This document shows positions 3,952 to 25,723 of a DNA stretch of 25,723 nt, one piece after another. Source of the DNA: a virus. Under the pieces are notes generated by a model. That model ran no database searches and was not told the DNA's origin. It saw only the letters and a program-made list of their open reading frames with translations. Made by a program: the position numbers and the translations under genes. The stretch is from positions 1 to 25,723 of the IMG/VR virus record IMGVR_UViG_3300009507_000110; one strand, given 5' to 3'. Position 1 is the stretch's first letter, and each line of letters starts with the position of its first letter.

Positions 3952-4171
3952 TGAGCTAATTAAAGTTGCTAAAGAAAAAATAATTACGCATACCCAAGAT
4001 GATGTATCTACTGACAGACTTAAGAACGCAGCAGCTACAAAAAAGCTTTGTATAATGGACGCTTTTGAAATACTACAACGTATAGAAGAAGAAGAAGAAA
4101 GAATTAACGACAAGCCAAAACAGGTTAAAGAGAAAAGAGTACTTAAGTTTGCGGAAGGGAGAAGCAAGTGA
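3896..4171 (+). CDS. Probable terminase small subunit
   Basis: 91 residues, helical and charged. It sits immediately upstream of, and overlapping by four bases, the terminase large subunit, the usual place for TerS, which selects phage DNA for packaging and regulates the motor. The core, D-E-L-I-K-V-A-K-E-K-I...D-R-L-K-N-A-A-A-T-K-K-L-C-I-M-D-A-F-E-I-L-x-R-I-E-E-E, resembles small proteins preceding TerL in flavobacterial phages as I recall. It is short for a TerS (often 130-200 aa) and shows no separate DNA-binding helix-turn-helix, so assignment rests mainly on position. The start at ATG 3896 lies inside the GroES-like gene in another frame; the N-terminal STKETRKNIIQAGRKAVDEL reads naturally, supporting that start. 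Confidence 0.55.
   Translation: MSTKETRKNIIQAGRKAVDELIKVAKEKIITHTQDDVSTDRLKNAAATKKLCIMDAFEILQRIEEEEERINDKPKQVKEKRVLKFAEGRSK
4155..4161 (+). promoter_or_regulatory. Possible Shine-Dalgarno sequence for the terminase GTG start
   Basis: AAGGGAG lies six bases before GTG 4168, an acceptable spacing. It is the clearest purine-rich site of this kind in the window, where most other starts follow A/T-only leaders. It also codes within the preceding gene, so the match may be accidental. It nevertheless supports the GTG start over a later ATG. Confidence 0.3.
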
Positions 4172-6390
4172 GTTACGAACAAACTCTTTGGAAAGAATTA
4201 AAAGATATTGTAAACCCAAAAATACTATCTAAAAACAATAGATTTAAAAAATGGGAATATGGTTACAACGTAGAATACGATTTTATAGTAATAAGCAAAA
4301 CTGGAAAAATTGGACAAATCATTGAAATACAAAATCTCAGGATTGCTTTACCAGCAACAAATGAACCGTTTAAACGAAGCGAAAAAAAAGCAGAGCAATA
4401 TTGGGAAAAACAAAATTACCCAAAAGACTTAAGCAGAATTAAAAGCAGGTTTGACTGGGAAGAGTATCCATTATATTTTAAAGAAAAATGGTACGATTAT
4501 ATTGATGATGAATTTACTAGACGGGAACAAGGATTTCACTTTTATAACAATGGCACTCCTACTTACATTACTGGCACTCATTACATGTACTTGCAATGGT
4601 CAAAAATTGATATTGGAGCACCGGAATATAGAGAGTCAAATAGATTATTTTTTATATTTTGGGAAGCATGTAAAGCAGACCACAGGTCATACGGAATTTG
4701 TTATCTTAAAAACAGAAGATCTGGATTTTCTTTTATGTCGTCAGCGGAACTTGTTAACCAAGCTACAATATCTAGCGACTCCAGATTCGGTATACTTTCA
4801 AAGTCTGGTGCAGATGCCAAAAAAATGTTTACCGATAAAGTTGTACCTATATCAGTTAACTACCCTTTCTTTTTTAAGCCCATTCAAGATGGTATGGACA
4901 GACCAAAAACTGAATTGGCATATCGTGTTCCGGCATCAAAGCTTACTAGAAGAAAACTTGAGTCTAATGAGCAGTTACAAGAATTAGATGGTCTTGATAC
5001 GACTATTGACTGGAAAAACACAGGTGACAACTCTTATGATGGTGAGAAGCTAAAAATACTAGCTCATGATGAAAGTGGTAAATGGGAAAGACCTGATAAT
5101 ATATTAAACAACTGGAGAGTTACAAAAACTACATTAAGACTGGGATCTAGAATCGTAGGTAAGTGTATGATGGGCTCAACTTCAAATGCTTTAGATAAAG
5201 GTGGAGAAAATTTTAAAAAACTATACAATAATTCAGACGTTACTAAAAGAAATAAAAACGGACAAACAGCTTCTGGACTCTATAGCTTGTTCATACCTAT
5301 GGAGTGGAACTACGAAGGATTCATGGATACTCATGGATTACCTATCTTCGTTGGAGGATCAAGTCCAATCAAAAGTATCGATGGTTCAACAATTACGACA
5401 GGAGTTATTGAACACTGGGAAAACGAAGTCGAAGGTTTAAAGCATGATCAAGACGCTTTAAATGAATATTACAGACAATTTCCAAGAACTGAAAAACACG
5501 CTTTCAGAGATGAAACAAAAGATAGTTTATTTAATCTGACTAGAATATATCAACAAATAGATTATAACGAAGAAATGAACCATAAAGTAGGTGTTACTAC
5601 TGGTAATTTTCAATGGACAAATGGTATAAAAGATACTCAAGTTATTTTTTATCCAAATAAAAAAGGTAGATTTAATATTTCTTGGATACCACCTGTTAAT
5701 TTACAAAATAGTGTAATAATAAAAAATGGAATTAAATATCCAGCTAACGAACACATTGGAGCTTTCGGATGTGATAGTTATGATATTTCTGGTACTGTTG
5801 ACGGTAAGGGCTCTAAAGGAGCACTTCATGGATTAACAAAGTTTACAATGGATGAAGCTCCATCTAATATGTTTTTTTTAGAATATGTAGCTAGACCTGA
5901 TACAGCTGAAATATTTTTTGAAGATGTATTAATGGCTTGTATATTTTATGGTATGCCTATACTTGCTGAAAACAATAAGCCTAGATTGTTATATTATTTT
6001 AAACGTAGAGGCTACAGAGGTTTTTCAATGAATAGACCTGATAAGTTATTTAACAAGTTGTCTCCAGCGGAAAGAGAAATAGGTGGAATACCAAATACTA
6101 GTGAAGACATTAAACAAGCACACGCAGCAGCGATTGAATATTATATTGAAAATCACGTAGGCGCTTTAGAACAAGGATATGGAAATATGTATTTCCAGAG
6201 AACACTAGATGACTGGAGTAGGTTCAATATAAATAATAGAACAAAATACGATGCTTCTATTAGTTCTGGTTTAGCAATAATGGCTTGTAATAAAAACAAG
6301 TATAGACCTATACCAATTAGAACTAAAAACGAAATTAACTTAGGAATAAGAAGATACAACAACGACGGATCTATGTCACAAATAATATAA
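4168..6390 (+). CDS. terL: Terminase large subunit (packaging ATPase and nuclease)
   Basis: 740 residues, typical of TerL in crAss-like and related phages. TerL docks on the portal, drives DNA into the prohead with its ATPase and cuts the concatemer with its RNase H-like nuclease. The ATPase half has a Walker A-like segment at about 180-189 (L-K-N-R-R-S-G-F-S-F) lacking the canonical G-K-S/T, a good Walker B at 295-302 (L-K-I-L-A-H-D301-E302) and an S-T-S-N coupling motif at 337-340. The nuclease half begins near 530 with H-I-G-A-F-G-C-D536-S-Y-D, followed by E601 and acidic residues at 681-682 or 695 as candidate metal ligands. The N-terminal about 100 residues are an extra domain with Tyr/Trp-rich surface. 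The start is GTG 4168, overlapping the small-subunit stop (GTGA). The portal gene follows after three bases. Confidence 0.9.
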   Translation: MSYEQTLWKELKDIVNPKILSKNNRFKKWEYGYNVEYDFIVISKTGKIGQIIEIQNLRIALPATNEPFKRSEKKAEQYWEKQNYPKDLSRIKSRFDWEEYPLYFKEKWYDYIDDEFTRREQGFHFYNNGTPTYITGTHYMYLQWSKIDIGAPEYRESNRLFFIFWEACKADHRSYGICYLKNRRSGFSFMSSAELVNQATISSDSRFGILSKSGADAKKMFTDKVVPISVNYPFFFKPIQDGMDRPKTELAYRVPASKLTRRKLESNEQLQELDGLDTTIDWKNTGDNSYDGEKLKILAHDESGKWERPDNILNNWRVTKTTLRLGSRIVGKCMMGSTSNALDKGGENFKKLYNNSDVTKRNKNGQTASGLYSLFIPMEWNYEGFMDTHGLPIFVGGSSPIKSIDGSTITTGVIEHWENEVEGLKHDQDALNEYYRQFPRTEKHAFRDETKDSLFNLTRIYQQIDYNEEMNHKVGVTTGNFQWTNGIKDTQVIFYPNKKGRFNISWIPPVNLQNSVIIKNGIKYPANEHIGAFGCDSYDISGTVDGKGSKGALHGLTKFTMDEAPSNMFFLEYVARPDTAEIFFEDVLMACIFYGMPILAENNKPRLLYYFKRRGYRGFSMNRPDKLFNKLSPAEREIGGIPNTSEDIKQAHAAAIEYYIENHVGALEQGYGNMYFQRTLDDWSRFNINNRTKYDASISSGLAIMACNKNKYRPIPIRTKNEINLGIRRYNNDGSMSQII

Positions 6391-10021: not shown

Positions 10022-11500
10022 ATGAGTTTTACAACAGGAGGTTCGTTCCCTGCAAGTATTGTACCAATGCCAAATCAAGTAACTGTACAAGACAATTACA
10101 TCGATTTTAATGACGGTGCATTCAATCAGTGGGCGCAACAATATCTACCTGAGCTTTATGAGCAAGAGGTAGAAAGATACGGAAACAGAACATTATCTGG
10201 TTTCTTAAGAATGGTTGGTGCTGAGATGCCAATGACATCGGATCAAGTAGTTTGGTCTGAACAAAATAGATTACACATAGCTTATGATAATGCCGCTGTA
10301 GCAGCTAACGCTGGTTCAGGTATTACTATAACGATTACACCAGGTGCTGGTAACCCAGCTACTTCTGCTATTAGAGATGGTAACACTATATTAATAACTG
10401 ACAACGCAACAGGTTTATTATCTGCAAAAGCTTTAGTAACTGACAGAACTTCTGGTGGTACTACTAACGGATATACAATTGACTGTGTGTTATATGAGTC
10501 AACTTCTGCTGCTTTACCAGCTGGTATTACAGGTGGAGCATGTAGCTTATTTGTATATGGTTCTGAATTTCCAAAAGGAAGTAACGGGATGCAAGGTGCA
10601 ATTGAGCCAGGTGTTACAACTTTTACTAACTCACCAATTATCCTTAAAGATAATTATGAGTTAAGTGGTTCTGATGCTGCTCAAATTGGTTGGATCGAAG
10701 TTGCTACTGAAGATGGTACTTCTGGATACTTATGGTATCTAAAAGCTGAGTCTGAAACTAGATTAAGATTTGAAGACTATTTAGAAATGGCAATGGTTGA
10801 AGGTGAACTTCAAGCTAACACTGTAGCTTTTGGTGGAAACTTTGGACCAGGTGGTGCTGCTCAAAACATCAAAGGAACTGAAGGTTTATTTGCTGCTATC
10901 GAATCAAGAGGTAATGTATACTCTGGTTTTGCTGGCGCTGCTGCTCCTGGTTCAGGTGCATTAGGAGATTTCGATGAGATCTTAAAGCAACTAGATAAGC
11001 AAGGTGCAATTGAAGAAAACATGTTATTCTTATCAAGACAAACTGCTCTTGATTTTGATGATATGCTAGCTGCTACTAATGGTGGTTATGCTTCAACAAA
11101 CGCTGCTTCTTACGGATTATTTGATAACGAAGCTGAAATGGCACTTAACTTTGGTTTTTCAGGTTTTAGAAGAGGTTCTTATGACTTCTATAAGACTGAT
11201 TGGAAATACTTAAACGATGCTACTACAAGAGGTATGTCTAGCGCTATTGATGGTGTTATGATACCAGCTGGTACATCTACAGTATACGATCAAATGTTAG
11301 GATCAAATATCAGACGTCCTTTCTTACACGTAAGATTTAGAGCTTCTGAGACTGAAGACAGAAGATTCAAAGCATGGATCACTGGATCTGTTGGTGGTGC
11401 TTACACTACTGATTTAGATACATTGAGAGTTAATTTCTTATCTGAAAGATGTTTAGTAACTCAAGCTGCTAATAACTTCGTGTTATTCAAAGGAGCTTAA
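10022..11500 (+). CDS. Major capsid protein (HK97 fold)
   Basis: 492 residues, the size of crAss-like and related flavophage major capsid proteins. Placed right after the scaffold, it should be the most abundant virion protein. The N-terminal arm (10-83) with Q-W-A-Q-Q-Y-L-P-E-L-Y-E-Q-E-V-E-R-Y is followed by a Gly/Thr-rich beta domain at about 84-200 that looks like an insertion of the kind that decorates the capsid surface. After F-V-Y-G-S-E-F-P-K-G (about 177-186) comes the conserved shell core (about 205-480), with G-W-I-E-V...L-W-Y-L-K-A-E-S-E-T-R-L-R-F-E-D-Y-L and the C-terminal V-R-F-R-A-S-E-T-E-D-R-R-F-K. Apparently uncleaved, as no clear protease site or preceding prohead protease gene is visible. 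The start is ATG 10022 after an A/T-rich gap. Confidence 0.87.
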   Translation: MSFTTGGSFPASIVPMPNQVTVQDNYIDFNDGAFNQWAQQYLPELYEQEVERYGNRTLSGFLRMVGAEMPMTSDQVVWSEQNRLHIAYDNAAVAANAGSGITITITPGAGNPATSAIRDGNTILITDNATGLLSAKALVTDRTSGGTTNGYTIDCVLYESTSAALPAGITGGACSLFVYGSEFPKGSNGMQGAIEPGVTTFTNSPIILKDNYELSGSDAAQIGWIEVATEDGTSGYLWYLKAESETRLRFEDYLEMAMVEGELQANTVAFGGNFGPGGAAQNIKGTEGLFAAIESRGNVYSGFAGAAAPGSGALGDFDEILKQLDKQGAIEENMLFLSRQTALDFDDMLAATNGGYASTNAASYGLFDNEAEMALNFGFSGFRRGSYDFYKTDWKYLNDATTRGMSSAIDGVMIPAGTSTVYDQMLGSNIRRPFLHVRFRASETEDRRFKAWITGSVGGAYTTDLDTLRVNFLSERCLVTQAANNFVLFKGA

Positions 11501-12804: not shown

Positions 12805-13551
12805 ATGGCAATTAACGTTAACACTGTATACACAACTGTATTAAGTATTCTTAATAAAGAGCAAAGAGGTTATTTAACTCCTGATGAATTTAACAAGGTA
12901 GCTACACAAGTTCAATTAGAAATATTTGAAAGTTACTTTGAAAATTTAAATCAACAGTTAAGAAGTCCTCAAAACAATACTGAGTATGCGAATCGCGTTA
13001 AACTGCTAAGAGAAAAAATAGCTACATTTGAAACATCAGCAGTCGCTACTGTAGCTTTATCAGGTATATTTGGCCAAGCGACTTTACCAGCAGATCTACA
13101 TAGATTTGGTATGTTAGAATATACTAATAGTTCTAAACTACCAGTTGAAGTAGAGAAATTATCACGCCACATGGTTCTACAAGCAAGGCGTTCTCAATTA
13201 ACATCTCCATCACAAGATTATCCTATATGTTATATAGAGGGAAATAAATTAAACATATTACCAGGTATAGCCACAGCGGCAGCTAACGTCGGCAATGGCA
13301 CAGGTGCTCAAAGCTATATGGTAGAATATGTTAAAAAACCTACATCTCCACAATGGGCTTTTACAATTAATAGCGTAGGTGGTTATATTTACAATGGACC
13401 TGGATCTGTAGATTTTGAAATATCAGATGTAGATCAAACAGAGCTTATTACAAAAATACTAATGTATACTGGAGTTATAATAAGAGATCCAGAATTAATG
13501 CAAGCCGCAGCTGGAGCATCTGCTGCACAAGATCAACTAGAACAAAGCTAA
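12805..13551 (+). CDS. Candidate neck or head-completion protein
   Basis: 248 residues. The N-terminus is helical (V-N-T-V-Y-T-T-V-L-S-I-L-N-K-E-Q-R-G-Y-L-T-P-D-E-F-N-K-V-A-T-Q) and about residues 60-85 carry another charged helix. The second half includes Y-C/I-E-G-N-K-L-N-I-L-P-type strand segments (C-Y-I-E-G-N-K-L-N-I-L-P) and an Y-M-V-E-Y-V-K-K-P-T-x-P-Q-W-A motif, like the barrel regions of ring or adaptor proteins that attach to portals. The C-terminus ends D-P-E-L-M-Q-A-A-A. I associate this type of protein with head-tail connection in related phages, mainly through position between capsid and tail-nozzle genes. Specific role (adaptor, ring or cement) cannot be decided from sequence. 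It starts after the terminator and a short A/T leader. Confidence 0.6.
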   Translation: MAINVNTVYTTVLSILNKEQRGYLTPDEFNKVATQVQLEIFESYFENLNQQLRSPQNNTEYANRVKLLREKIATFETSAVATVALSGIFGQATLPADLHRFGMLEYTNSSKLPVEVEKLSRHMVLQARRSQLTSPSQDYPICYIEGNKLNILPGIATAAANVGNGTGAQSYMVEYVKKPTSPQWAFTINSVGGYIYNGPGSVDFEISDVDQTELITKILMYTGVIIRDPELMQAAAGASAAQDQLEQS

Positions 13552-13557
13552 TAAGAT

Positions 13558-14775
13558 ATGACTAAAACAGCAGCTACAATACCTATAACAGAAAACGATC
13601 AACAATACTATGCCGGGCAATATGGTCCATTAGGAAATACCACTGGTGGCACTAAAGATGTATGGGAGTTTCCAGATTTAAACACAACACTTATAAGTAA
13701 TTTTGATACTATAGGAGGGGATCAAGTAAGAGATACTGGCAACTTTGTTGTTCATGCTTTAGCTACAGCTACTACTTTACCTAGTAATGCTAATTTAATT
13801 ACATCTAGTAATGTTATTGTAACTGACACTACTAACAACACTATAAAAATAAGCCCAGCTATTGCTAATGGTGCTTTTATTTTTTTACAATTAACTGACA
13901 TAGCTAGAGGAGATAATTGGGGTAGTTACAGAAATTTAACATTAAATAATGTTATTAGTAATTTTTTACTTGCATATACTGGAGAAGGTCAAATACTAAC
14001 TACAGTAAGTAGAACACAGGTATTATTTCATGCTAGAAGAGCTATGCAAGAGTTATCTTATGATACATTAAAAGCTTTTAAAGCTCAAGAATTAACAGTT
14101 CCAACAGGTCTTTCTGTTCCTATACCAGTTGATTATGTAAACTACGTAAACGTATGTTATGCTGATTCTAATGGTATATTACATCCTATATACCCACTTG
14201 ATGGACTTAGTGGAAACCCAACTGAACTACCTATTCAAGATGGCGCAACTGGCATACCTACTCAAAGTTCTTATGATACTAACTTAGAAGCATCTCAATC
14301 AGTAATAGAAGATAGATGGAATAAAGCAAATCAAAATGATATTAATGGTGATTATGATATTTTTGCTCAAAATGGAGTTTACGATTACACTTGGTGGAAA
14401 CAAGCATACGGACAGAGATATGGGTTAGAACCTCAATACTCTCAAAGTAACGGTTATTTTAGCATTAACGAAAGAACAGGTACTTTTAGTTTTAGTAGTA
14501 ATTTAGTTAATAGAGTTGTAGAATTAAAATACATTTCTGATGGTTTAGCTTATGATCTTAACTCTCTAGTACCTAAGTTCATAGAAGATGCTTTATATTC
14601 AAAAATAATGTACAACATATGCGCATCCAGAAGAGACGTAGATGGTGGAACAAAACAATTCTACAAGAGAGACTCATACGTTAAAACAAGAAACGCAAAA
14701 ATAAGATTATCAAATTTAAAGCTTGAAGAAATAACTCAAGTTTTTAGAGGTCAATCTAAATGGATTAAACATTAA
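13558..14775 (+). CDS. Candidate neck/tail ring protein with inserted beta domain
   Basis: 405 residues. Residues about 120-200 contain Y-R-N-L-T-L-N-N-V-I-S-N-F-L-L-A-Y...F-H-A-R-R-A-M-Q-E-L-S-Y-D-T-L-K and V-P-I-P-V-D-Y-V-N-Y-V-N-V, a block I recall in neck/ring proteins of flavobacterial phages, functionally comparable to the tail-adaptor proteins of podoviruses. The C-terminus (N-A-K-I-R-L-S-N-L-K-L-E-E-I-T-Q-V-F-R-G-Q-S-K-W-I-K-H) is also characteristic. Residues about 40-115, rich in Thr, Asn and Val, look like an inserted beta domain between the start and the core. The protein probably makes a ring linking portal and nozzle (inference). It starts six bases after its upstream neighbour's stop and is followed five bases on by the first nozzle gene. 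Confidence 0.65.
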   Translation: MTKTAATIPITENDQQYYAGQYGPLGNTTGGTKDVWEFPDLNTTLISNFDTIGGDQVRDTGNFVVHALATATTLPSNANLITSSNVIVTDTTNNTIKISPAIANGAFIFLQLTDIARGDNWGSYRNLTLNNVISNFLLAYTGEGQILTTVSRTQVLFHARRAMQELSYDTLKAFKAQELTVPTGLSVPIPVDYVNYVNVCYADSNGILHPIYPLDGLSGNPTELPIQDGATGIPTQSSYDTNLEASQSVIEDRWNKANQNDINGDYDIFAQNGVYDYTWWKQAYGQRYGLEPQYSQSNGYFSINERTGTFSFSSNLVNRVVELKYISDGLAYDLNSLVPKFIEDALYSKIMYNICASRRDVDGGTKQFYKRDSYVKTRNAKIRLSNLKLEEITQVFRGQSKWIKH

Positions 14776-14780
14776 ATTAA

Positions 14781-17700
14781 ATGCAACGTAAATTTAACCA
14801 CACATTTACTAAGTCTAAAATGAACAAAGACTTAGACGCTAGATTGTTAGGGGCTGATGAATATAGAGACGGTCAAAACGTTGCTGTATCCAGATCAGAG
14901 GCTGATGACGTAGGTGCATTAGAAAATATTTTAGGTAATTTACTTTTCAATCAACTAACTTCTGACACTTCAGGAGATACTAATAGTGTTTATTTACTAC
15001 AATTTATAGGTTGGTTTATAAACGAAAACACTAACAAAGTGTATATATTTGCAACTGACTTTCAAGATAGTTCATCAGATCAAATATCTTTATTTGCTTC
15101 ACCAAATAGCTCACATAAAATAATTGTAGCAGATTTAACATCTAACACTGTAAACACTATCGTTTCTGGTAGGTTTTTAAATTTTTCATATAATAGTCCT
15201 ATCTTAGATACAGCTATGATAGAAAACCAGTTGTTTTGGACAGACAACAGAAATCAACCTAGAAATATAAACGTTGAAACAGCAGAGTCAGATCCTAATT
15301 ACTATTTTAATGAAGATCATGTATCACTAGCTAAATATTATCCTCATAAGCCAATACAGCTTTTTGAAGAGTACTCACAATCTGCTTTTCTTACTACAAC
15401 AACAGCTGGAAGAGTTGAAGGTTATATTACATTTGATTCTATATATCCTTATTTTTTGTTTAACAAAAGCGTAATGAGTGCTACTATGATAAACGCGCTT
15501 GAAGATAATATTGGCTTGCAAGGTTATGTTAAAGGTAATGATAATAACACTTGGGAGTTTAAAGTAGCTTATGTTCAAACGTTCAATAATTATCCAGGAA
15601 ACCCGTTTACAGGTGGTGGTATTGCTTTAGCTGTATTTATTGATAGAGATATAAGCGCTCAAGTAACTACACAGTCAGATCCTGATGGAGCCGCGTTTAA
15701 CTATACGGTTCATTTTGTAGATCAAACATCGAAAGATGTATCATCTCCTTGGTTAAGAGAAGATCAAGTTAAACTTAAACTTGATAGTGTTAGTGCTAGC
15801 TCAGGTGGATATGTATACACTAGCGGAGCGTCTGGAAACTATGACTACGCACAAGCACTGTACAGGTACGGTACGCGATCGCCTTATAACTATTTAGAAA
15901 AAGTAACAGGTGGTGGTAATTGGGAATCATTTCAAATAGCAAACCATTTTCCTAAAAACACTGGCTTGGCAGCGGTAGGTTATGCTAGAATAACACACCC
16001 TAGTTTAAACCCTAATAAGTACTACGTAATAACAGATGTTTTAAATCCTGCTTCGGCTGCTAAAGGTTTTGTTGTATCAGAGCTTAGCGGATTTGTTGGA
16101 GGTACTTTAACACCTGTAAATGCTAACCAAATACTTTCACAAGGTGATATTGTTACAGTACATTGGCCTAATAAATATTATAATTATAATTTTCCAGGTG
16201 ATCCAAAATTTTTAGAAGATAAGTTTGTAAGATTTTCATATAGGTTTAGATATGACGATGGACAATATTCTGTTATAGCTCCTTTTACTCAAGAAGTTTT
16301 TATTCCAAAACAAAAAGGATATTTTTTAAAAGATATTAATAAGCAAAAAAGCACAGGTACAGATGACAATAATTATGTTCCACAAGAAAATACTGCAGGT
16401 CAAAACACTATAGTAGATTTTATGGAAAATGAAATTACTGAAGTTAAACTAAGAATACCCTGTGAATACAACATAAACACTTTAGCTAATAATTTAAAAG
16501 TAAAAGAAATAGACATACTATATAAAGAGTCTATGGGTTTAAGTATTAAAATTGCTGAAACAATAGACGTAGATGATACATCTATAACTTCTAACTCAAC
16601 TAATTTTTTAGAATATATATATCAGTCTAAGCAACCTATAAAAACTCTTAGATCTTCTGAAACTACTAGAGTATACGATAACGTACCTATCAGAGCTAAA
16701 TCATTAACATCGTCAGGTAATAGAGTTTTATTAGCTAACTACTTTGATAGACATACTTCGCCTGAAAGTTTAGCTTATTATGTTTCAGCTGGTAGAAAAC
16801 TAACGCCAGGCAGCACTTCACAAAATCAGTCAAATGCGATAAGCAGTAATTTACCTGGTAAATTTAGTAATATAACATATCCTAATCATAGTTTAAAGCA
16901 AAACAGAACATATCAAGTAGGTTTAATACTTCAAGATAGATATGGTAGATCATCTGATGTTATATTATCAAGTTTCTCTGATACTAACTTTACTTTAGCA
17001 ACAGGTACATTTGCTGATGATCCACAAACTTTTTATGGATCAACACTGTTTCATGGTTATTTACCTTCTGTAACGACACCTTTAACAGCTAGTCCAGCTA
17101 GTAAAAATGTAGTTAATTCTGGTATTGTTAACTGGCCAGGTGATTCGTTAAAAGTTTTATTTACAGAACAAATACCTAGAACTATAAACTACGCAAGTGG
17201 TTATCCAGGTTTATATGAAGATCCTTTAGCAACAACCGCTATAGTTACATCTGATACTACTAATAAGTTTATTCAAGTAGCAACTGGAGGTGCTAGAGAC
17301 TCAATACAACCAGGAGATATTATGAAGTGGACTGCTTCAGGCGTTGATTACGAAGTAGTAGTACAATGGGCTATTGCACCATATCCTTTTAGCACTAATA
17401 ATAGATACGGTATAGTAACTCAAGATGGAGAAGATCCAGCTGTATATCCAGCTGTTGCACAGTCTGTAGATTTTATCACTGCTGGTAACGCTACGGGGTG
17501 GTACAGTTATAAAGTTGTAGTAAAACAATTAGAACAAGATTATTTTAATGTTTATTTACCTAGTTTACTAAATGGAACACCAGTTATTAAGCCTTTCAAT
17601 TTAACATGTAGCTTTGTTATTGGTAGTAAAATAGTTACTGTGGATCCTATAGGAACCATTGAATACTTAACTTTTCCACTTTTAGAAGGTATGAAAATTG

Positions 17701-19175
17701 TTACGCCTGGTAGTAAAACATATTTCATAAACAATGTATTAAACTATACTCAATTTGAATTAACAGAAACAGCTAAAGCTACAGAAGCAGCTGCAGATTC
17801 TGTATTTAGTACAGAGTCTAGCAATGGCGTTTTAAATGTTACTACTTTATTAACTGATAATGCTAATAAGGTTCCACCTGCTTTAATGGAGACAACTCCT
17901 GTACAACAGCAATACTCTACTAGTAATGTAAGATTAATACCTAGAGTAGGTAAACTAAACAGTTCTTTTATTACTGATAGACCTTATTTTCCCTTAGCTA
18001 CAACCGCTTCAGGTCCTGTATTTCCAGGATTACAAACAATGAAAGTACAATCTATAGGTAATTTTGATAACTTATTTAAAAGAGGTAGCTACAATGGTTT
18101 ATATAATGCAGACACAGATCCACCTACAGCGATAATACAAAATTCTTTTAATATAGGTTCAGATTCTCAAACTGCAAAACCTTCTTCTCAAACAGAGTTT
18201 TTACCTTCAATATATGAAACTAATCCTACGATAAGTAATATAGAGATATATTATGAAACAAGCACGTCTGGAACTGTAAAAGAATTAAACACTTTAATAA
18301 GAGATAATTTAACTGTGCCAACACAGTTTGTAACATACCCATCAAGTGGCGGTGGTACTGGTACGTCTCCTTTGGGTATTGTAAGTTTTAATGAGTCTTT
18401 ACAATATTCTGCTGGCGCTACTATAGCTAAGTTTCAATTAGTAGATCAAAATGGTGCTTTAATAACTTACGCAAGTGCTATAGACTTTGCTGTTAGCACA
18501 GCTTTTTATCAAAATGGAACTTCAATAAGTCAATCTCCATTTACTGTAACACAATCATCTGTTACGAGTGAGCAAGCTGATAGTGTTTATTTATTAAAGC
18601 CAACAGCTACAAACCCAATGTATAGCTCAGGTAATGCTAATTTAGATAATGTTAATTTTAATATCAATTTTAACTTTTTACAATTTGGAATACTACCAGT
18701 GCCTTACAGTATTAATATACCTACTTTTGTAACAAACACAGCACCAGTGTTTAATACTAGCAGGGTAAACGCATCAGGTACTGTTTATTATGTAACAGAA
18801 AAACTAGGAACTGGAGCACCTGTAGCTCCAGGACCTACTAATTGGGGTAACGACGACGGTAGTAACACCACTAAAACTAAAGCAACAAACGGTGGTAATA
18901 CCAGCAATTTTGGTGCTGGAACAGGCATTACTTGGGATTTATTTGTTAAAAGTCCAACAATTTTTGGAACAAGTGGATATGTATTAGCTAGTTTAATAGA
19001 AGGATTATCGTTGAGTCTAATTGTGCAACAAGATTCTTGTAACCTAAACGTTGGCAAATTTAGTGAAGAGTATGTATCAGCTAACATAGAAGTAGAAATA
19101 AGAGCTACAGATCAAAATGGCAATGGGTTAACAAGTACAATTTCTAGATTTGATTTAAGACTAAAAGAAAACTAG
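14781..19175 (+). CDS. Large tail-nozzle (muzzle-like) protein
   Basis: 1464 residues, the largest complete product. The N-terminus (10-53) contains F-T-K-S-K-M-N-K-D-L-D-A-R-L-L...E-Y-R-D-G-Q-N-V-A-V-S-x-S-E-A-D-D-V-G-A-L-E-N-I-L-G-N, a signature I recognise from tail-nozzle or stabilisation proteins of crAss-like and related podoviruses; the first strands of a beta-propeller in such proteins have this form. The middle is beta-rich with propeller-like repeats. Near residue 940-1000 (bases about 17600-17780) a small insert reads G-S-K-I-V-T-V...L-L-E-G-M-K-I-V-T-P-G-S-K-T-Y-F-I-N-N-V, a compact beta module common in tail proteins. The last about 200 residues are adhesin-like, ending E-I-R-A-T-D-Q-N-G-N-G. 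In known relatives the nozzle closes the head, delivers DNA and may bind fibres. Here the G-I-S-K-N-P-E-S-F motif is missing and occurs in the next gene. Confidence 0.75.
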   Translation: MQRKFNHTFTKSKMNKDLDARLLGADEYRDGQNVAVSRSEADDVGALENILGNLLFNQLTSDTSGDTNSVYLLQFIGWFINENTNKVYIFATDFQDSSSDQISLFASPNSSHKIIVADLTSNTVNTIVSGRFLNFSYNSPILDTAMIENQLFWTDNRNQPRNINVETAESDPNYYFNEDHVSLAKYYPHKPIQLFEEYSQSAFLTTTTAGRVEGYITFDSIYPYFLFNKSVMSATMINALEDNIGLQGYVKGNDNNTWEFKVAYVQTFNNYPGNPFTGGGIALAVFIDRDISAQVTTQSDPDGAAFNYTVHFVDQTSKDVSSPWLREDQVKLKLDSVSASSGGYVYTSGASGNYDYAQALYRYGTRSPYNYLEKVTGGGNWESFQIANHFPKNTGLAAVGYARITHPSLNPNKYYVITDVLNPASAAKGFVVSELSGFVGGTLTPVNANQILSQGDIVTVHWPNKYYNYNFPGDPKFLEDKFVRFSYRFRYDDGQYSVIAPFTQEVFIPKQKGYFLKDINKQKSTGTDDNNYVPQENTAGQNTIVDFMENEITEVKLRIPCEYNINTLANNLKVKEIDILYKESMGLSIKIAETIDVDDTSITSNSTNFLEYIYQSKQPIKTLRSSETTRVYDNVPIRAKSLTSSGNRVLLANYFDRHTSPESLAYYVSAGRKLTPGSTSQNQSNAISSNLPGKFSNITYPNHSLKQNRTYQVGLILQDRYGRSSDVILSSFSDTNFTLATGTFADDPQTFYGSTLFHGYLPSVTTPLTASPASKNVVNSGIVNWPGDSLKVLFTEQIPRTINYASGYPGLYEDPLATTAIVTSDTTNKFIQVATGGARDSIQPGDIMKWTASGVDYEVVVQWAIAPYPFSTNNRYGIVTQDGEDPAVYPAVAQSVDFITAGNATGWYSYKVVVKQLEQDYFNVYLPSLLNGTPVIKPFNLTCSFVIGSKIVTVDPIGTIEYLTFPLLEGMKIVTPGSKTYFINNVLNYTQFELTETAKATEAAADSVFSTESSNGVLNVTTLLTDNANKVPPALMETTPVQQQYSTSNVRLIPRVGKLNSSFITDRPYFPLATTASGPVFPGLQTMKVQSIGNFDNLFKRGSYNGLYNADTDPPTAIIQNSFNIGSDSQTAKPSSQTEFLPSIYETNPTISNIEIYYETSTSGTVKELNTLIRDNLTVPTQFVTYPSSGGGTGTSPLGIVSFNESLQYSAGATIAKFQLVDQNGALITYASAIDFAVSTAFYQNGTSISQSPFTVTQSSVTSEQADSVYLLKPTATNPMYSSGNANLDNVNFNINFNFLQFGILPVPYSINIPTFVTNTAPVFNTSRVNASGTVYYVTEKLGTGAPVAPGPTNWGNDDGSNTTKTKATNGGNTSNFGAGTGITWDLFVKSPTIFGTSGYVLASLIEGLSLSLIVQQDSCNLNVGKFSEEYVSANIEVEIRATDQNGNGLTSTISRFDLRLKEN

Positions 19176-19190
19176 TAAATTATTCAATAA

Positions 19191-19204
19191 AACAAGTGAT
19201 TATA
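19191..19204 (+). repeat. Intergenic 14-base motif, second copy
   Basis: AACAAGTGATTATA, identical to 12747-12760, ends four bases before ATG 19209 in the 33-base gap between the two nozzle genes. Both copies are intergenic, which makes chance less likely but not excluded in such AT-rich DNA. Confidence 0.4.
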
Positions 19205-19208
19205 TATT

Positions 19209-21140
19209 ATGGCAAACAAACTACCGTTAATAGAAGTAGATTACTATAATTCTATTTGGAATAAAAGAATTTTAACGCCTCAACCAGTGAGGCAGACAGG
19301 AACAGCAGACGCAGTACTAGGCGGTGCTGGATCAGCTGCTAATTTAGGAACGTGGCCAATTAACAATGTGTTTGCACCACCACTAACATTTAATCCTGGT
19401 TTTGATACTGATGGACCTGACACCGTTAGCACTACTGAATCTGTTAGTCCACAGAACTTCTATATTGAAGAAATGTACATTAGAGGAGGTTTTAATAACA
19501 ACTCCATGTCTTATGGTGTAAGAGCTTATTTAGATGAAGACGAGCCGTTACAACAACATAGATTTAACACTATAATATATTCAGGTGTATTTAATTCTAG
19601 AACAGGCACAAATAGAACTAATGAGTTTCCTGTAGGAACTAACTTAACAAGATCTGCAAATCCTCAATATGGTTCTATACAGAAAATATTTGCTGATGAA
19701 AATGACGTAGTTGTTTTACAAGAGAATAAATGTAGCAGAGCTTTAATAGATAAAAATGCTATATATAATGCTGAGGGCGGTGGTAGTGTTACTAGTCAAA
19801 GGCAAGTACTAGGTGAAATAGTACCTTATGCTGGTGAATATGGTATAAGTAAAAATCCTGAGTCTTTTGCAGTATACGCTTTTAGAAAGTATTTTGTTGA
19901 TAGAAACAGAAATGCAGTATTAAGATTATCTGGAAATGGTATAACTGAAATATCAGAATATGGTATGCGAGACTTCTTTAGAGATAATCTAGCTACAATG
20001 AACGATAATTATACAAATGAATATACTCAAGATCTAAATATAACGCAAATCAATACAAGCCAAGGTAATAATGTAAGTTATTTTACAGTTTTTGCAACTC
20101 CTGCATTAAATAAGTCTACTGTAATACCAGGTTCTAAAATATTTTGGTCTAGTGATTCTGGTGCTACTTATATAGATACTACAGCTACCGCGATGGGATT
20201 GGCGCCCCTAGGAGGTTTTGGAAGTGCTTTAGTATTGTTTACTGATAAAGTGTTAGATAGTACATTTATGAATCCATTTACTAATGGTAGATTAAAATTA
20301 ATAGCTCCATATAGAAGTAGAGCTTATGGTGGTTGGGATGCTTATAATAAACAATATGTTGTTTCTTTACAGTATAATAATGCAAGAACAGGTGATCCAG
20401 TAGGAATATCAAGCTCATTACCTAATCGTGATACTACATTTTATACTTTAGGTTTTGATGATTCTGTTAATGGTTGGCCAAGTTTTTATAGTTATATGCC
20501 AGCAGCTATAGGTAGTTTAAAGAGTAAAATGCTAACTCTTAACAACCAACCATATGCGCCTGGTATTTACACGGGTGGCGCTACACAGTTAACTGGATTA
20601 TATACACATTATGAAATTAGTTCTTCACATGGAACTTTTTACAACACATCAAATGTTTCTACAGTATCAATAGTAGCAAACTCTCAGCCTTCACTACAAA
20701 AGAATTTTTTAACTATAGACTACGAGGGTGACAGTGGCTGGAAAGCTAGCGTAATAACTTCTGATCGAACAGGTAGAGATATAAACAGAACAACTGGTGG
20801 AGCTTTGTCAGGTGGTTTTAGTTTTAGTGACGATAACGCTAACATTATAAACAGTTACGTAGAAGGAGCATATGATAGCTTAGGTAACGTTGGTACTGCA
20901 GCTAATCCAATAAACACACCTTTATTAAGAGCTGGTTTTGATAGAAAAGAAAATAGATACGTAGCAAACTTTATTAATACTTCAACACAAGCACCAGGAG
21001 AAATAATATTTGGAAACTCTATGAGTGGTTTAAAAGGTTATTATTTAGATATAACTTTTTCAACTGATACTAACACAGACCCAGGTGGTATGAAGGAATT
21101 ATATTCAATAGGAGTAAATTACAACGTATCGTCAAGATAA
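19209..21140 (+). CDS. Second tail-nozzle protein (beta-propeller-like)
   Basis: 643 residues. Residues 151-260 include N-P-Q-Y-G-S-I-Q-K-I-F-A-D-E-N-D-V-V-V-L-Q-E-N-K, then S-R-A-L-I-D-K-N-A-I-Y, and E-Y-G-I-S-K-N-P-E-S-F-A...R-K-Y-F-V-D-R-N-R-N-A-V-L-R-L-S-x-N-G-I-T-E-I-S-E-Y-G-M. I recognise this block from stabilisation/muzzle proteins of crAss-like and other marine phages, where it can occur in the same chain as the M-N-K-D-L-D start found upstream. The rest is strand-rich and could make propeller blades. It probably assembles with the upstream protein in the distal tail tube, and the two are separated only by a 33-base gap with its own ATG. A remnant of a single ancestral protein is possible. 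The start follows the shared 14-base motif by four bases. Confidence 0.75.
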   Translation: MANKLPLIEVDYYNSIWNKRILTPQPVRQTGTADAVLGGAGSAANLGTWPINNVFAPPLTFNPGFDTDGPDTVSTTESVSPQNFYIEEMYIRGGFNNNSMSYGVRAYLDEDEPLQQHRFNTIIYSGVFNSRTGTNRTNEFPVGTNLTRSANPQYGSIQKIFADENDVVVLQENKCSRALIDKNAIYNAEGGGSVTSQRQVLGEIVPYAGEYGISKNPESFAVYAFRKYFVDRNRNAVLRLSGNGITEISEYGMRDFFRDNLATMNDNYTNEYTQDLNITQINTSQGNNVSYFTVFATPALNKSTVIPGSKIFWSSDSGATYIDTTATAMGLAPLGGFGSALVLFTDKVLDSTFMNPFTNGRLKLIAPYRSRAYGGWDAYNKQYVVSLQYNNARTGDPVGISSSLPNRDTTFYTLGFDDSVNGWPSFYSYMPAAIGSLKSKMLTLNNQPYAPGIYTGGATQLTGLYTHYEISSSHGTFYNTSNVSTVSIVANSQPSLQKNFLTIDYEGDSGWKASVITSDRTGRDINRTTGGALSGGFSFSDDNANIINSYVEGAYDSLGNVGTAANPINTPLLRAGFDRKENRYVANFINTSTQAPGEIIFGNSMSGLKGYYLDITFSTDTNTDPGGMKELYSIGVNYNVSSR

Positions 21141-21149
21141 TTAAATTAA

Positions 21150-21554
21150 ATGAAAATAAGAAAAATAACAAAGTCTGATTATAAGACTTTAGAAAAATGG
21201 TGGAAAGGTTTTAATTGGAAATCAGCACCAAGAAAAGATATATTACCAGAGAATGGCACAGGCGGATTAATGATAGAAAAAGAAAATAAAAGTGTAGCTG
21301 CTGTTTTTATATATAATACTAATTCTAGTCTATCTTGGATAACTTGGCTTGTTTCAGACCCTAACTATAAGAAAAGAGATAAAGCATTGCTTATTGAAAC
21401 TCTTGTAAAAGGCGCAGAACAAGTTAGTAGAAATATGGGTAAAAAAGGTATGTTTGCTTTTGGAAAAACTAATTCAATAGTTAACATACATAAAAAATTA
21501 GGTTGGTTTATAGACGAAGATAAACCAGGAAAAGAAATGATAAAATTAATATAA
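21150..21554 (+). CDS. GNAT acetyltransferase-like protein
   Basis: 134 residues. The order of elements fits a GNAT fold: an N-terminal M-K-I-R-K-I-T-K-S-D-Y-K-T-L-E-K-W-W, a strand with S-V-A-A-V-F-I-Y, a W-I-T-W-L-V-S-D-P-N-Y strand, then a helix, and a late N-S-I-V-N-I-H-K-K-L-G-W-F segment that resembles the family's motif B. GNAT enzymes transfer acetyl groups from acetyl-CoA. The usual acetyl-CoA pyrophosphate-binding Q/R-x-x-G-x-G/A is replaced by K-K-R-D-K-A (about residues 72-77), so catalysis is uncertain. Similar GNATs sit between tail and internal-virion genes in related marine phages, so they may modify a virion or host protein or have become structural. The start follows the nozzle stop after nine bases. 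Confidence 0.65.
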   Translation: MKIRKITKSDYKTLEKWWKGFNWKSAPRKDILPENGTGGLMIEKENKSVAAVFIYNTNSSLSWITWLVSDPNYKKRDKALLIETLVKGAEQVSRNMGKKGMFAFGKTNSIVNIHKKLGWFIDEDKPGKEMIKLI

Positions 21555-23934: not shown

Positions 23935-25723
23935 ATGGGTTGGGAAGATTTAATAGTAGGCTCTGAGACAGAAACAAACCAAGACACAAATGGTAATACA
24001 GGTGGTGATTCTTGGCAAGATTTAATTGTTCAAGAAGAAGAAGTACTTTTACCAGATGAACAAGGCGCTATTGAAGATGAAGTTGTTGATAAAACTGTTG
24101 AAATAGAAGAACCTGAAGATGAAACTATTATACCTGTTAAAGTTGCTGATTTCATAACTAACGAACTAATAAATGAAAAGATGCTATACACTTGGAATGG
24201 TGAAAAAACTGTAGATGAGTTATTAGCAAAAGAAGACAACTTCAGAGATTTATCTAGCGACGATAGAGTTAAAGAATTAGAACAAGCTAAAAAAGAACAT
24301 GGTATAGCTAGTCAAAAATCTCATGAAAAAGACGCTTCTGATAGAGCTGTTCAAAAAGAAAAAGATAAAAAAGATTTAAATAGAGATGACTTTGAATTAG
24401 AAGAAACTGACTTTGTAAAAGTAATGAATCAAAAGTATGCAGATAGAGGTATTACTTTTGAAGAAGCAAACGTAGGTAATGGAGTTAGTGTACTAAAAAT
24501 TGATCCTGAAACTGGTAAAGAAATTAGAAAAGATTTTGATCTTGGTGGATTTGATTTTCATATAGGTGATTTTGGTAGACAAGATAAAGATGCTGACTTT
24601 GATAAACTAAAAACTTATGTAGATTCTATATCTGGCAAGCCAGCTGAAGAGCTAACTGAAGTTGATAAATTAATGAAAGGTAGACAACCTGAAATGCAGT
24701 CTACAGAAACACTAGAAGAACAGCAAGAGCAGTACATGAGTTCTGTTAGTCGTATTGAACAATCAAACTTAACTCCAGAACAAAAATGGGCTAAAATTAG
24801 CAATTTAGCAAAACCTAGATATAGTAATATAGATTTTGATAAAGAATCAGAAAAGTACAAATTTAAACCTACTGAAGAATTTCAAGCAAAGATTAATGAT
24901 AGCTTTAAAGATATTATAGGTGGAGCGGGTTTTGCTGGTTCAAGCAAGTACGAAAGTGAAGCTCAGTTAATCGAAGATATAAAAAAGAGAAGAGAAGAGG
25001 TAATAGCTAACGATCCTATATTAAATAGGCAAGCTAAAAATATTCAATTAAAGTTAGAGCCAGATTTTAAAAAAATGGCAGAAGAAATATCTTCTAAGTA
25101 TGATATGTCTAACGCGGAAGATGTCGAAGCTGCTAATAAAGAGTTTGAAAAAGCTAGAAGAGATCTTTTCAATAAAAATTTAAGAGAAAACAAAGTGTAT
25201 AGACACGTTGTTACTGACATTGATAATGCTATAGATGTTGCTGCTAACACAGCTAATATAAAATATAAAAGAGCTAACACTGGTAGTACATTTGATAATC
25301 TTGTATTTGCAGGAGGAGACTTATTAAGGCTAAAAGGAGCTGATACTTTAGCTGGCGGTTTAGAAGCTTTAACAACTGGTTTTAAAGCTCAAACAGGTAA
25401 AGCATGGAATGCCACGCAGATAGCTATGCAACAATTTGATGTTGACACTGCTCAAAGTAATATTGATGAAACTGCTTTACTTAGTGATAAACAGAAGATA
25501 GTTGTTAATGCAGATGGGTCTATAAATCAAGACAAATCAAAAGAACAGTTTGGTACTGACAATTTTCAAGCTACATTAAAAGAAGCTCCAGCAACTCCTA
25601 GAGATGCTAAGTATAATTTAGATGGAACTATAGATACTAAAAAAAGAGATGTTTACGGTGGAGAAATGAAAACCAAAGAAATGACTGTTGGTGAGTATAG
25701 AAAATACCAAGAACATAGAAAAG
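23935..25723 (+). CDS. Large internal/cargo virion protein, 3' truncated
   Basis: The frame opens at ATG 23935 six bases after the previous stop and stays open to the window end: 596 complete codons. The N-terminus reads M-G-W-E-D-L-I-V-G-S-E and near residue 27 S-W-Q-D-L-I-V-Q-E-E, so the W-[EQ]-D-L-I-V motif occurs twice in a very acidic start. A moderately charged helical body follows; about residues 440-500 contain small Gly/Ala-rich segments (F-A-G-G-D-L-L-R-L-K-G-A-D-T-L-A-G-G-L-E-A). The size implies a very long product. I infer an ejected core protein, which in podoviruses can carry lytic transglycosylase or channel activity; in crAss-like phages such genes may encode RNA polymerase subunits further on. 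Neither is visible in this part. Confidence 0.65.
   Translation, partial: MGWEDLIVGSETETNQDTNGNTGGDSWQDLIVQEEEVLLPDEQGAIEDEVVDKTVEIEEPEDETIIPVKVADFITNELINEKMLYTWNGEKTVDELLAKEDNFRDLSSDDRVKELEQAKKEHGIASQKSHEKDASDRAVQKEKDKKDLNRDDFELEETDFVKVMNQKYADRGITFEEANVGNGVSVLKIDPETGKEIRKDFDLGGFDFHIGDFGRQDKDADFDKLKTYVDSISGKPAEELTEVDKLMKGRQPEMQSTETLEEQQEQYMSSVSRIEQSNLTPEQKWAKISNLAKPRYSNIDFDKESEKYKFKPTEEFQAKINDSFKDIIGGAGFAGSSKYESEAQLIEDIKKRREEVIANDPILNRQAKNIQLKLEPDFKKMAEEISSKYDMSNAEDVEAANKEFEKARRDLFNKNLRENKVYRHVVTDIDNAIDVAANTANIKYKRANTGSTFDNLVFAGGDLLRLKGADTLAGGLEALTTGFKAQTGKAWNATQIAMQQFDVDTAQSNIDETALLSDKQKIVVNADGSINQDKSKEQFGTDNFQATLKEAPATPRDAKYNLDGTIDTKKRDVYGGEMKTKEMTVGEYRKYQEHRK

Follow-up and report, generated by a model that had tools for sequence, protein, structure and literature searches.

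Two adjacent phage genes probably encode the two chains of one nozzle protomer with arms at the tail tip

The viral record IMGVR_UViG_3300009507_000110, analysed here over positions 1 to 25,723 (the whole stretch of 25,723 nucleotides, hereafter the window), contains two neighbouring genes, P0001 and P0002, that encode proteins of the tail nozzle, or muzzle. The open reading frame (ORF) coordinates bear out the layout given in an earlier note on this DNA, as P0001 occupies 14781–19175 (1464 amino acids, aa), P0002 occupies 19209–21140 (643 aa), both start with ATG, and 33 bases (19176–19208) lie between them. Residues 1–1171 of P0001 (14781–18293) represent the part homologous to one-chain nozzles and end, as located with a tail profile, at a YETSTSG..LN tail, and residues 1172–1464 (18294–19172) form a C-terminal extension of 293 aa beyond the joint, referred to below as the arm. 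The gene is closed by a TAG codon, immediately followed by an in-frame TAA. In P0002, residues 1–138 (19209–19622) comprise a conserved start (IEV.YYN) and a first segment, and residues 474–584 (20628–20960) match the Pfam family PF25729 (crAss_MUZ_C; 27.9 bits at a cut-off of 27, E 3.2e-6). The motif MNKDLD, which the earlier note had taken for the start of the first protein, does belong to P0001 and lies at residues 14–19 (14820–14837), away from the very start; GISKNPESFA is found at residues 212–221 of P0002 (19842–19871). All features of this paragraph lie on the + strand.

Comparison with PHROG 14478, a virion structural protein family of 1474 columns, revealed that the two genes match it together, collinearly and at different places, P0001 with residues 7–200 at columns 3–185 (E 3.5e-45) and P0002 with residues 87–267 at columns 920–1100 (E 6.9e-40). 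Alignment with single-chain nozzles, proposed as a check in the earlier note, gave the same order on gp097 of Cellulophaga phage phi38:1 (1324 aa), where the P0001-family profile falls at residues 3–401 and the P0002-family profile at 876–1165, and a match of the P0001-family profile to residues 1–151 of crAss001 gp44 (81% probability), a single chain of 1371 aa with very low sequence similarity to the window proteins. P0001 and P0002 are therefore parts of one muzzle/nozzle protein, as the earlier note had supposed for the two motifs. The arrangement in which one polypeptide carries the ring-joining domain and the whole propeller does not apply here, as two ORFs are observed instead.

Of 50,697 phage records searched with tblastn, 20 contained a match to P0001 and 87 a match to P0002, and phi38:1, ctfjg026, Panino, elemoF, Gundel_1, phi19:3, elemoA, phi13:2, phi46:3 and crAss001 were compared. 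The N-terminal, middle and core profiles match within a single ORF in phi38:1, ctfjg026, both elemo phages, Gundel_1 and phi19:3; phi13:2 and phi46:3 share the annotated gene layout of phi19:3, which is a comparison of layout only. The nozzles of the Pervagoviridae phage phi38:1 and of Elemovirus, both within PHROG 14478, hold homologues of both chains in order and in a similar gene neighbourhood, but as one chain (1470 and 1493 aa in two Elemovirus records). At the sequence level, the PDB yielded no match to P0001, P0002, A1 or A2, and the muzzle emerged only from structure models. At E 1e-3, Pfam returned no match for P0001 and only PF25729 for P0002; PF25731 (crAss_MUZ, the Crassvirales muzzle) was not matched by the window proteins, while crAss001 gp44 itself reaches 1250 bits.

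Further loci were taken from seven IMG/VR scans, which partly overlap and repeat some contigs and four of which comprise the best 80 loci each, and were classed by profiles of the N-terminal, middle and core domains. The 393 loci fell into 262 split, 125 single and 6 partial ones. With N and core matches required and L213, L237, L383 and L390 dropped, at least 258 split loci remain, the window included, among which 192 N proteins and 191 C proteins are distinct. The tail profile (YETSTSG..LN) is present in 192/192 distinct split N proteins; a regular-expression motif search had found 100 of them only and was replaced by the profile. We conclude that the split is an old, stable clade state, known here from metagenome contigs, and is not peculiar to the window genome.

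In a muzzle tree built from the N, M and C domains (135 rows), the split state needs three changes, as it does in the tree of the 405-aa gene upstream of P0001 (133 rows), which carries a warning of joined long branches; in both trees four rows with odd breaks were left uncounted and L390 was counted as split. A careful tree of 39 hand-picked rows (1198 columns, without arms) again needs three changes and contains one clade of 31 rows, 27 split and 4 single, with support 100/100. Within it, a 15-row clade (100/100) comprises three groups whose order is not resolved, namely L282 with the split L048 and L049, the trio L290, L050 and L281, and the nine split rows of the window. One change sufficed in none of 200 bootstrap trees of this set, and approximately unbiased (AU) tests on the 39-row tree rejected both a split clade excluding the four one-chain rows (p 2e-8) and the union of these four in one clade (p 8e-55).

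These four nested, rejoined nozzles lie at 4990–10686 in L050, 5353–11079 in L281, 5470–11055 in L282 and 5518–10176 in L290. L290 leaves its contig; in the other three, in which the junction was read, a single frame joins an ETSTSG-like tail to an IEV/IEF start across 13–17 residues, and the proteins fall short of the summed lengths of the two L048/L049 gene products by 216–277 aa. The rejoined proteins are without arms. As they show that the ends can be joined, the two chains plausibly sit together in the split forms as well.

Since the split loci form one clade among one-chain relatives, gene fission, one of the options raised in the earlier note, is the simplest reading, with one fission and two re-fusions as the simplest course of events; one re-fusion with two new fissions would be one step dearer, and the arms would need regaining. 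The opposite history, with two ancestral genes and fusions giving rise to the one-chain proteins elsewhere, is the rival that survives best, and we still regard it as improbable. The trees infer no root and their outer branches are long, a second kind of split occurs among the outer lineages, and two real fusions took place within the clade. Fusion in the other lineages, likewise raised in the earlier note, is the less parsimonious choice: crAss001 and the sampled outer lineages are one-chain at the joint, isolated breaks aside, and the arms would need losing at every fusion. Two separate full-length proteins, a state that by the earlier note would speak against its reading if general in the group, are found in the clade as sampled, whereas the outer lineages sampled have one chain at this place.

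Structure models complement the sequence comparisons. The AF2 model of P0002 has a mean predicted local distance difference test score (pLDDT) of 74.5, with most of residues 140–643 folded and values below 50 for residues 1–32 and 34–138, though much of this segment is conserved across the clade. Among its matches, the crAss001 muzzle (7qok_A) ranks first, with a Foldseek E of 8e-9 and a VIA Z of 13.7 over 320 residues, ahead of the nozzles of GP4 (Z 11.5), SU10 (10.9), Pa223 (10.8) and P22 (10.5). P0001 exceeds the folding limit of 1200 aa, and a homologue from L027 was modelled in its place (mean pLDDT 78); residues 53–794 of this model correspond to gp44 54–934, with Z 12.4–12.7 to 7qok_A. 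crAss001 gp44 (PDB 7qok, 7qol) is thus the best structural match of both models.

Excerpts of the published description of gp44 assign residues 318–1021 to IG2, with insertions at 453–904 and 940–1012, and a gate loop to propeller blade 4 (PMC10172136). Because the N chain matches up to residue 934, the cut probably lies in the second insertion (IG2 G–H), and IG2 and the propeller would therefore be shared by two chains. The joint is bounded by gp44 residue 934 (structure) and approximately residue 1049, the latter from a weak profile alignment of one-chain proteins with gp44 (probability 1.9), and we infer its position at the G–H insertion. A slightly less credible rival than ancestral separation regards P0002 as a complete small nozzle and P0001 as an independent tail-tip protein. 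It draws on the match of P0002 to the shorter nozzles of GP4, P22 and Pa223, but conflicts with the P0001 family, which holds a part collinear with gp44 1–934 and with the N-terminus of phi38:1 gp097, and with the rejoined forms, which are single chains.

In the 192 distinct split N proteins, an arm of 231–1008 residues follows the tail profile (median 571.5; 293 in the window), and only 79–106 residues separate the conserved tail from the core in the rejoined rows. In five outer one-chain rows with a weak tail match, the corresponding stretch measures 17–32 residues. The core of split C proteins begins at residue 43–196 (median 56), and there is therefore hardly room for an arm on that chain. 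Comparison of L281 and L282 with the split L284 (+ strand ORFs >110 aa) showed the same genes by size and order behind the nozzle, none of which replaces the arm. Conservation within P0001 itself is lowest in the final two 61-residue bins, with 68–69% identity to five close relatives compared with 74–92% in the other bins. An arm profile of the window clade detected arms in 39 of 263 split-class loci, all in the window's own clade, and in 0 single-class loci.

In the L027 model, a cadherin-like part directly follows the gp44-like residues 53–794. Residues 801–1048 resemble tandem cadherin domains (5szq_A, Z 9.7, root-mean-square deviation (rmsd) 8.8 over 202 residues), and a single-domain fit to the GspB Siglec domain (6efb) gave Z 9.0 and rmsd 2.7 over 99 residues. 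Profile–profile comparison of the window arm with other arms gave probabilities of 98.0 for L049, 82.9 for L027, 82.0 for L162, 52.9 for L064 and 11.0 for L135, and of 0.5 between L027 and L049; the window arm may be cadherin-like, judging from its comparison with the L027 group. Particularly long arms (>900 aa) occur in the N gene tails of L341, L343 and L346, with a further variable part after approximately 210 conserved residues, and Pfam gave no match for those of L341 and L346.

The gap between the genes had been described as regular. It amounts to 33 bases in the window and 29–41 nt in 91 of 136 distinct pairs across relatives, the remainder ranging from −13 to 91 nt, apart from one gap of 459 and one of 110 nt, the latter in Panino (L003). 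All three frame relations over the joint are represented (38, 44 and 54 of the 136 pairs), and the second gene starts with ATG in 133, Panino being included in both counts. The varying frame relations and gap lengths argue against a copied error and against recoding. We thus consider it very unlikely that readthrough of the stop or frameshifting across the joint still yields a single protein: a related gut phage recodes TGA, muzzle gene included, according to excerpts of PMC12386605, but P0001 ends in TAG with an in-frame TAA behind it, each of the three frame relations is represented, and 293 residues of P0001 past the homologous part would intervene. A sequencing error, broken gene or assembly join in one contig, as such breaks exist in Panino (L003), L213, L237, L383 and L390, is refuted by at least 258 loci with 192 distinct N proteins that share the joint with differing gaps and frames.

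The breaks of L213, L237 and L383 lie elsewhere or affect single broken copies, and L390 has a broken N gene. The break in L383 is near the window joint, yet the gene of L382 is intact at identical locus coordinates. The Maribacter phage Panino was rejected as a split case, as homologous sequence continues in another frame and the related L195 and L196 have it in one frame; the frame change falls at 10150–10450 of the deposited record, and L196 leaves its contig.

A second, different split was found in single-class loci with a profile of P0002 residues 408–643. It matched a separate ORF in 63 loci (ctfjg026-like, phi19:3); in a further 39 the match fell within the same ORF, and 23 loci, some of them incomplete, had no match. 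In the first group (L002 13212–14015; L033 10107–10832; L197, L199 and most of L200–L279), the C-terminal muzzle domain (PF25729) is encoded by its own gene of 241–282 aa, often with another gene between. The upstream chain of 60 complete loci reaches 282–797 residues beyond the core, and one-chain proteins outside the window clade have 1–16 residues between core and C-terminal muzzle domain. The phi19:3 and ctfjg026-type tails are related to each other (99.4), and no relatedness of these tails to window-type arms was detected. The phi19:3 tail contains the bacterial Ig/cadherin-like domain Big_9 (E 4e-21); three other second-split tails had no Pfam match above the cut-off. The trait changes twice on the muzzle tree. 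Thus, ctfjg026-like phages and Baltivirus/Bacelvirus (phi19:3, tested directly; phi13:2 and phi46:3, by annotated gene layout) share with the window a two-gene nozzle and an extended upstream chain, but their cut is placed further downstream, just ahead of the domain at the C-terminus of the muzzle.

From homology to one protein, the conserved split, its single clade and the nested armless rejoined forms, all read from sequence and trees, we propose with a probability of roughly 0.8 that the nozzle protomer consists of two chains and that the loop at the cut came to carry arms at the tip, which fits the two-component nozzle considered in the earlier note. P0001 and P0002 would form the two chains of one protomer, presumably in six copies each at the tail tip. 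The ring-joining domain would begin in P0001, which would also contribute the first propeller blades, Ig-like domains and the greater part of the crass-type tip domain, and P0002 would add the last tip/Ig part, the remaining blades and the C-terminal muzzle domain, so that the gate-forming propeller would be closed by two polypeptides. The cut would lie at a tip-region loop near the IG2 G–H insertion of gp44, and the new C-terminus of P0001 would carry arms hanging outside the tip, where they would most likely touch the host surface.

Several observations weigh against this proposal. Z values of up to 10.6 are also obtained between P0002 and unrelated propeller proteins, the TM-scores to 7qok_A by query length are low (0.37 for P0002, 0.21 for the L027 N protein), the modelled L027 homologue is 35–36% identical to P0001, and the low confidence of P0002 residues 1–138 may reflect poor data only. 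No Pfam family matched any of seven arms or a complete N protein, the cadherin likeness coming from the model only. On the quick 135-row tree, a split clade lacking the rejoined rows was not rejected by the AU test (p 0.705); a better tree had escaped the free search in that case. Mean-field coupling analysis placed 70 of the top 200 pairs between P0001 and P0002, compared with 0 in nine shuffles, and these couplings mostly reflect shared descent. In 110-column draws, the top 100 included 16–29 pairs with P0002, 10–13 with the 134-aa downstream gene, 2–18 with the 405-aa gene and 1–7 with a 248-aa gene; over 258 loci the numbers were 16–17 for P0002 and 5–11 for controls, the strongest single coupling being with the 248-aa gene. 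As control genes inherited together came close, the couplings were not used as proof.

The nozzles of P22 (gp10), SU10, GP4 and Pa223, and also T7 gp12, share the nozzle fold according to fold comparison with P0002; each consists of one chain and is not known to have a crass-type tip or such arms. With the two splits taken together, we lean slightly towards the view that cutting the nozzle at a tip loop is a recurrent and reversible route to tail-tip arms, with two loops, unrelated arms and their loss on re-fusion, and a propeller that would then consist of two polypeptides. The gate through which DNA and proteins are ejected lies in the nozzle, and a two-chain protomer, if true, would mean that cutting is tolerated in this part. 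Should the arms bind hosts, the free end accounts for the gain of adhesive domains at tail tips, outside the tail fibres. A nozzle-type protein of a Vibrio phage is reported as receptor-binding in excerpts of PMC7241545. Arms and joint are clear targets in laboratory phages, and annotation based on a one-chain model can miss half the nozzle in this large phage group. Among the open-licence papers listed, several lists being capped, titles and abstract openings revealed no split muzzle or nozzle, and PMC9965538 and PMC10136315 describe none in their passages that mention a nozzle, a muzzle or a split.

The nozzle pair belongs to a row of genes for packaging, the head and the virion, among them those for TerL, the portal and virion structural proteins. 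P0003, the 405-aa virion structural protein gene (13558–14775, +; PHROG 13977), lies directly upstream of P0001, and in crAss001 gp44 likewise directly follows the ring protein gene gp43, a likeness of position only. The 248-aa virion structural protein used as control (12805–13551, +; PHROG 14543) is a conserved neighbour. The phage records nearest to the window by TerL are ctfjg026 (64.6%) and then Elemovirus (44.7%). Relatives, i.e. phages and one metagenome-assembled genome (MAG), suggest a host within the Flavobacteriia. A two-gene nozzle layout is present at 3983–10441 of L396, a 12.9-kb contig binned with a Flavobacteriaceae MAG, with a 634-aa ORF, 57% identical to P0002, behind a 1509-aa ORF.

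Right after the nozzle pair follows a small gene of 134 aa (21150–21554), for which Pfam gave no match; genes of 133–134 aa likewise come after the nozzle in L281, L282 and L284, and the corresponding neighbourhood of ctfjg026 contains a gene annotated as N-terminal acetyltransferase subunit. Behind a 553-aa gene, an ORF at 23935–25722 leaves the window end; at its place, an ORF of at least 2071–2095 aa, possibly a large internal virion protein, is present in L281, L282 and L284.

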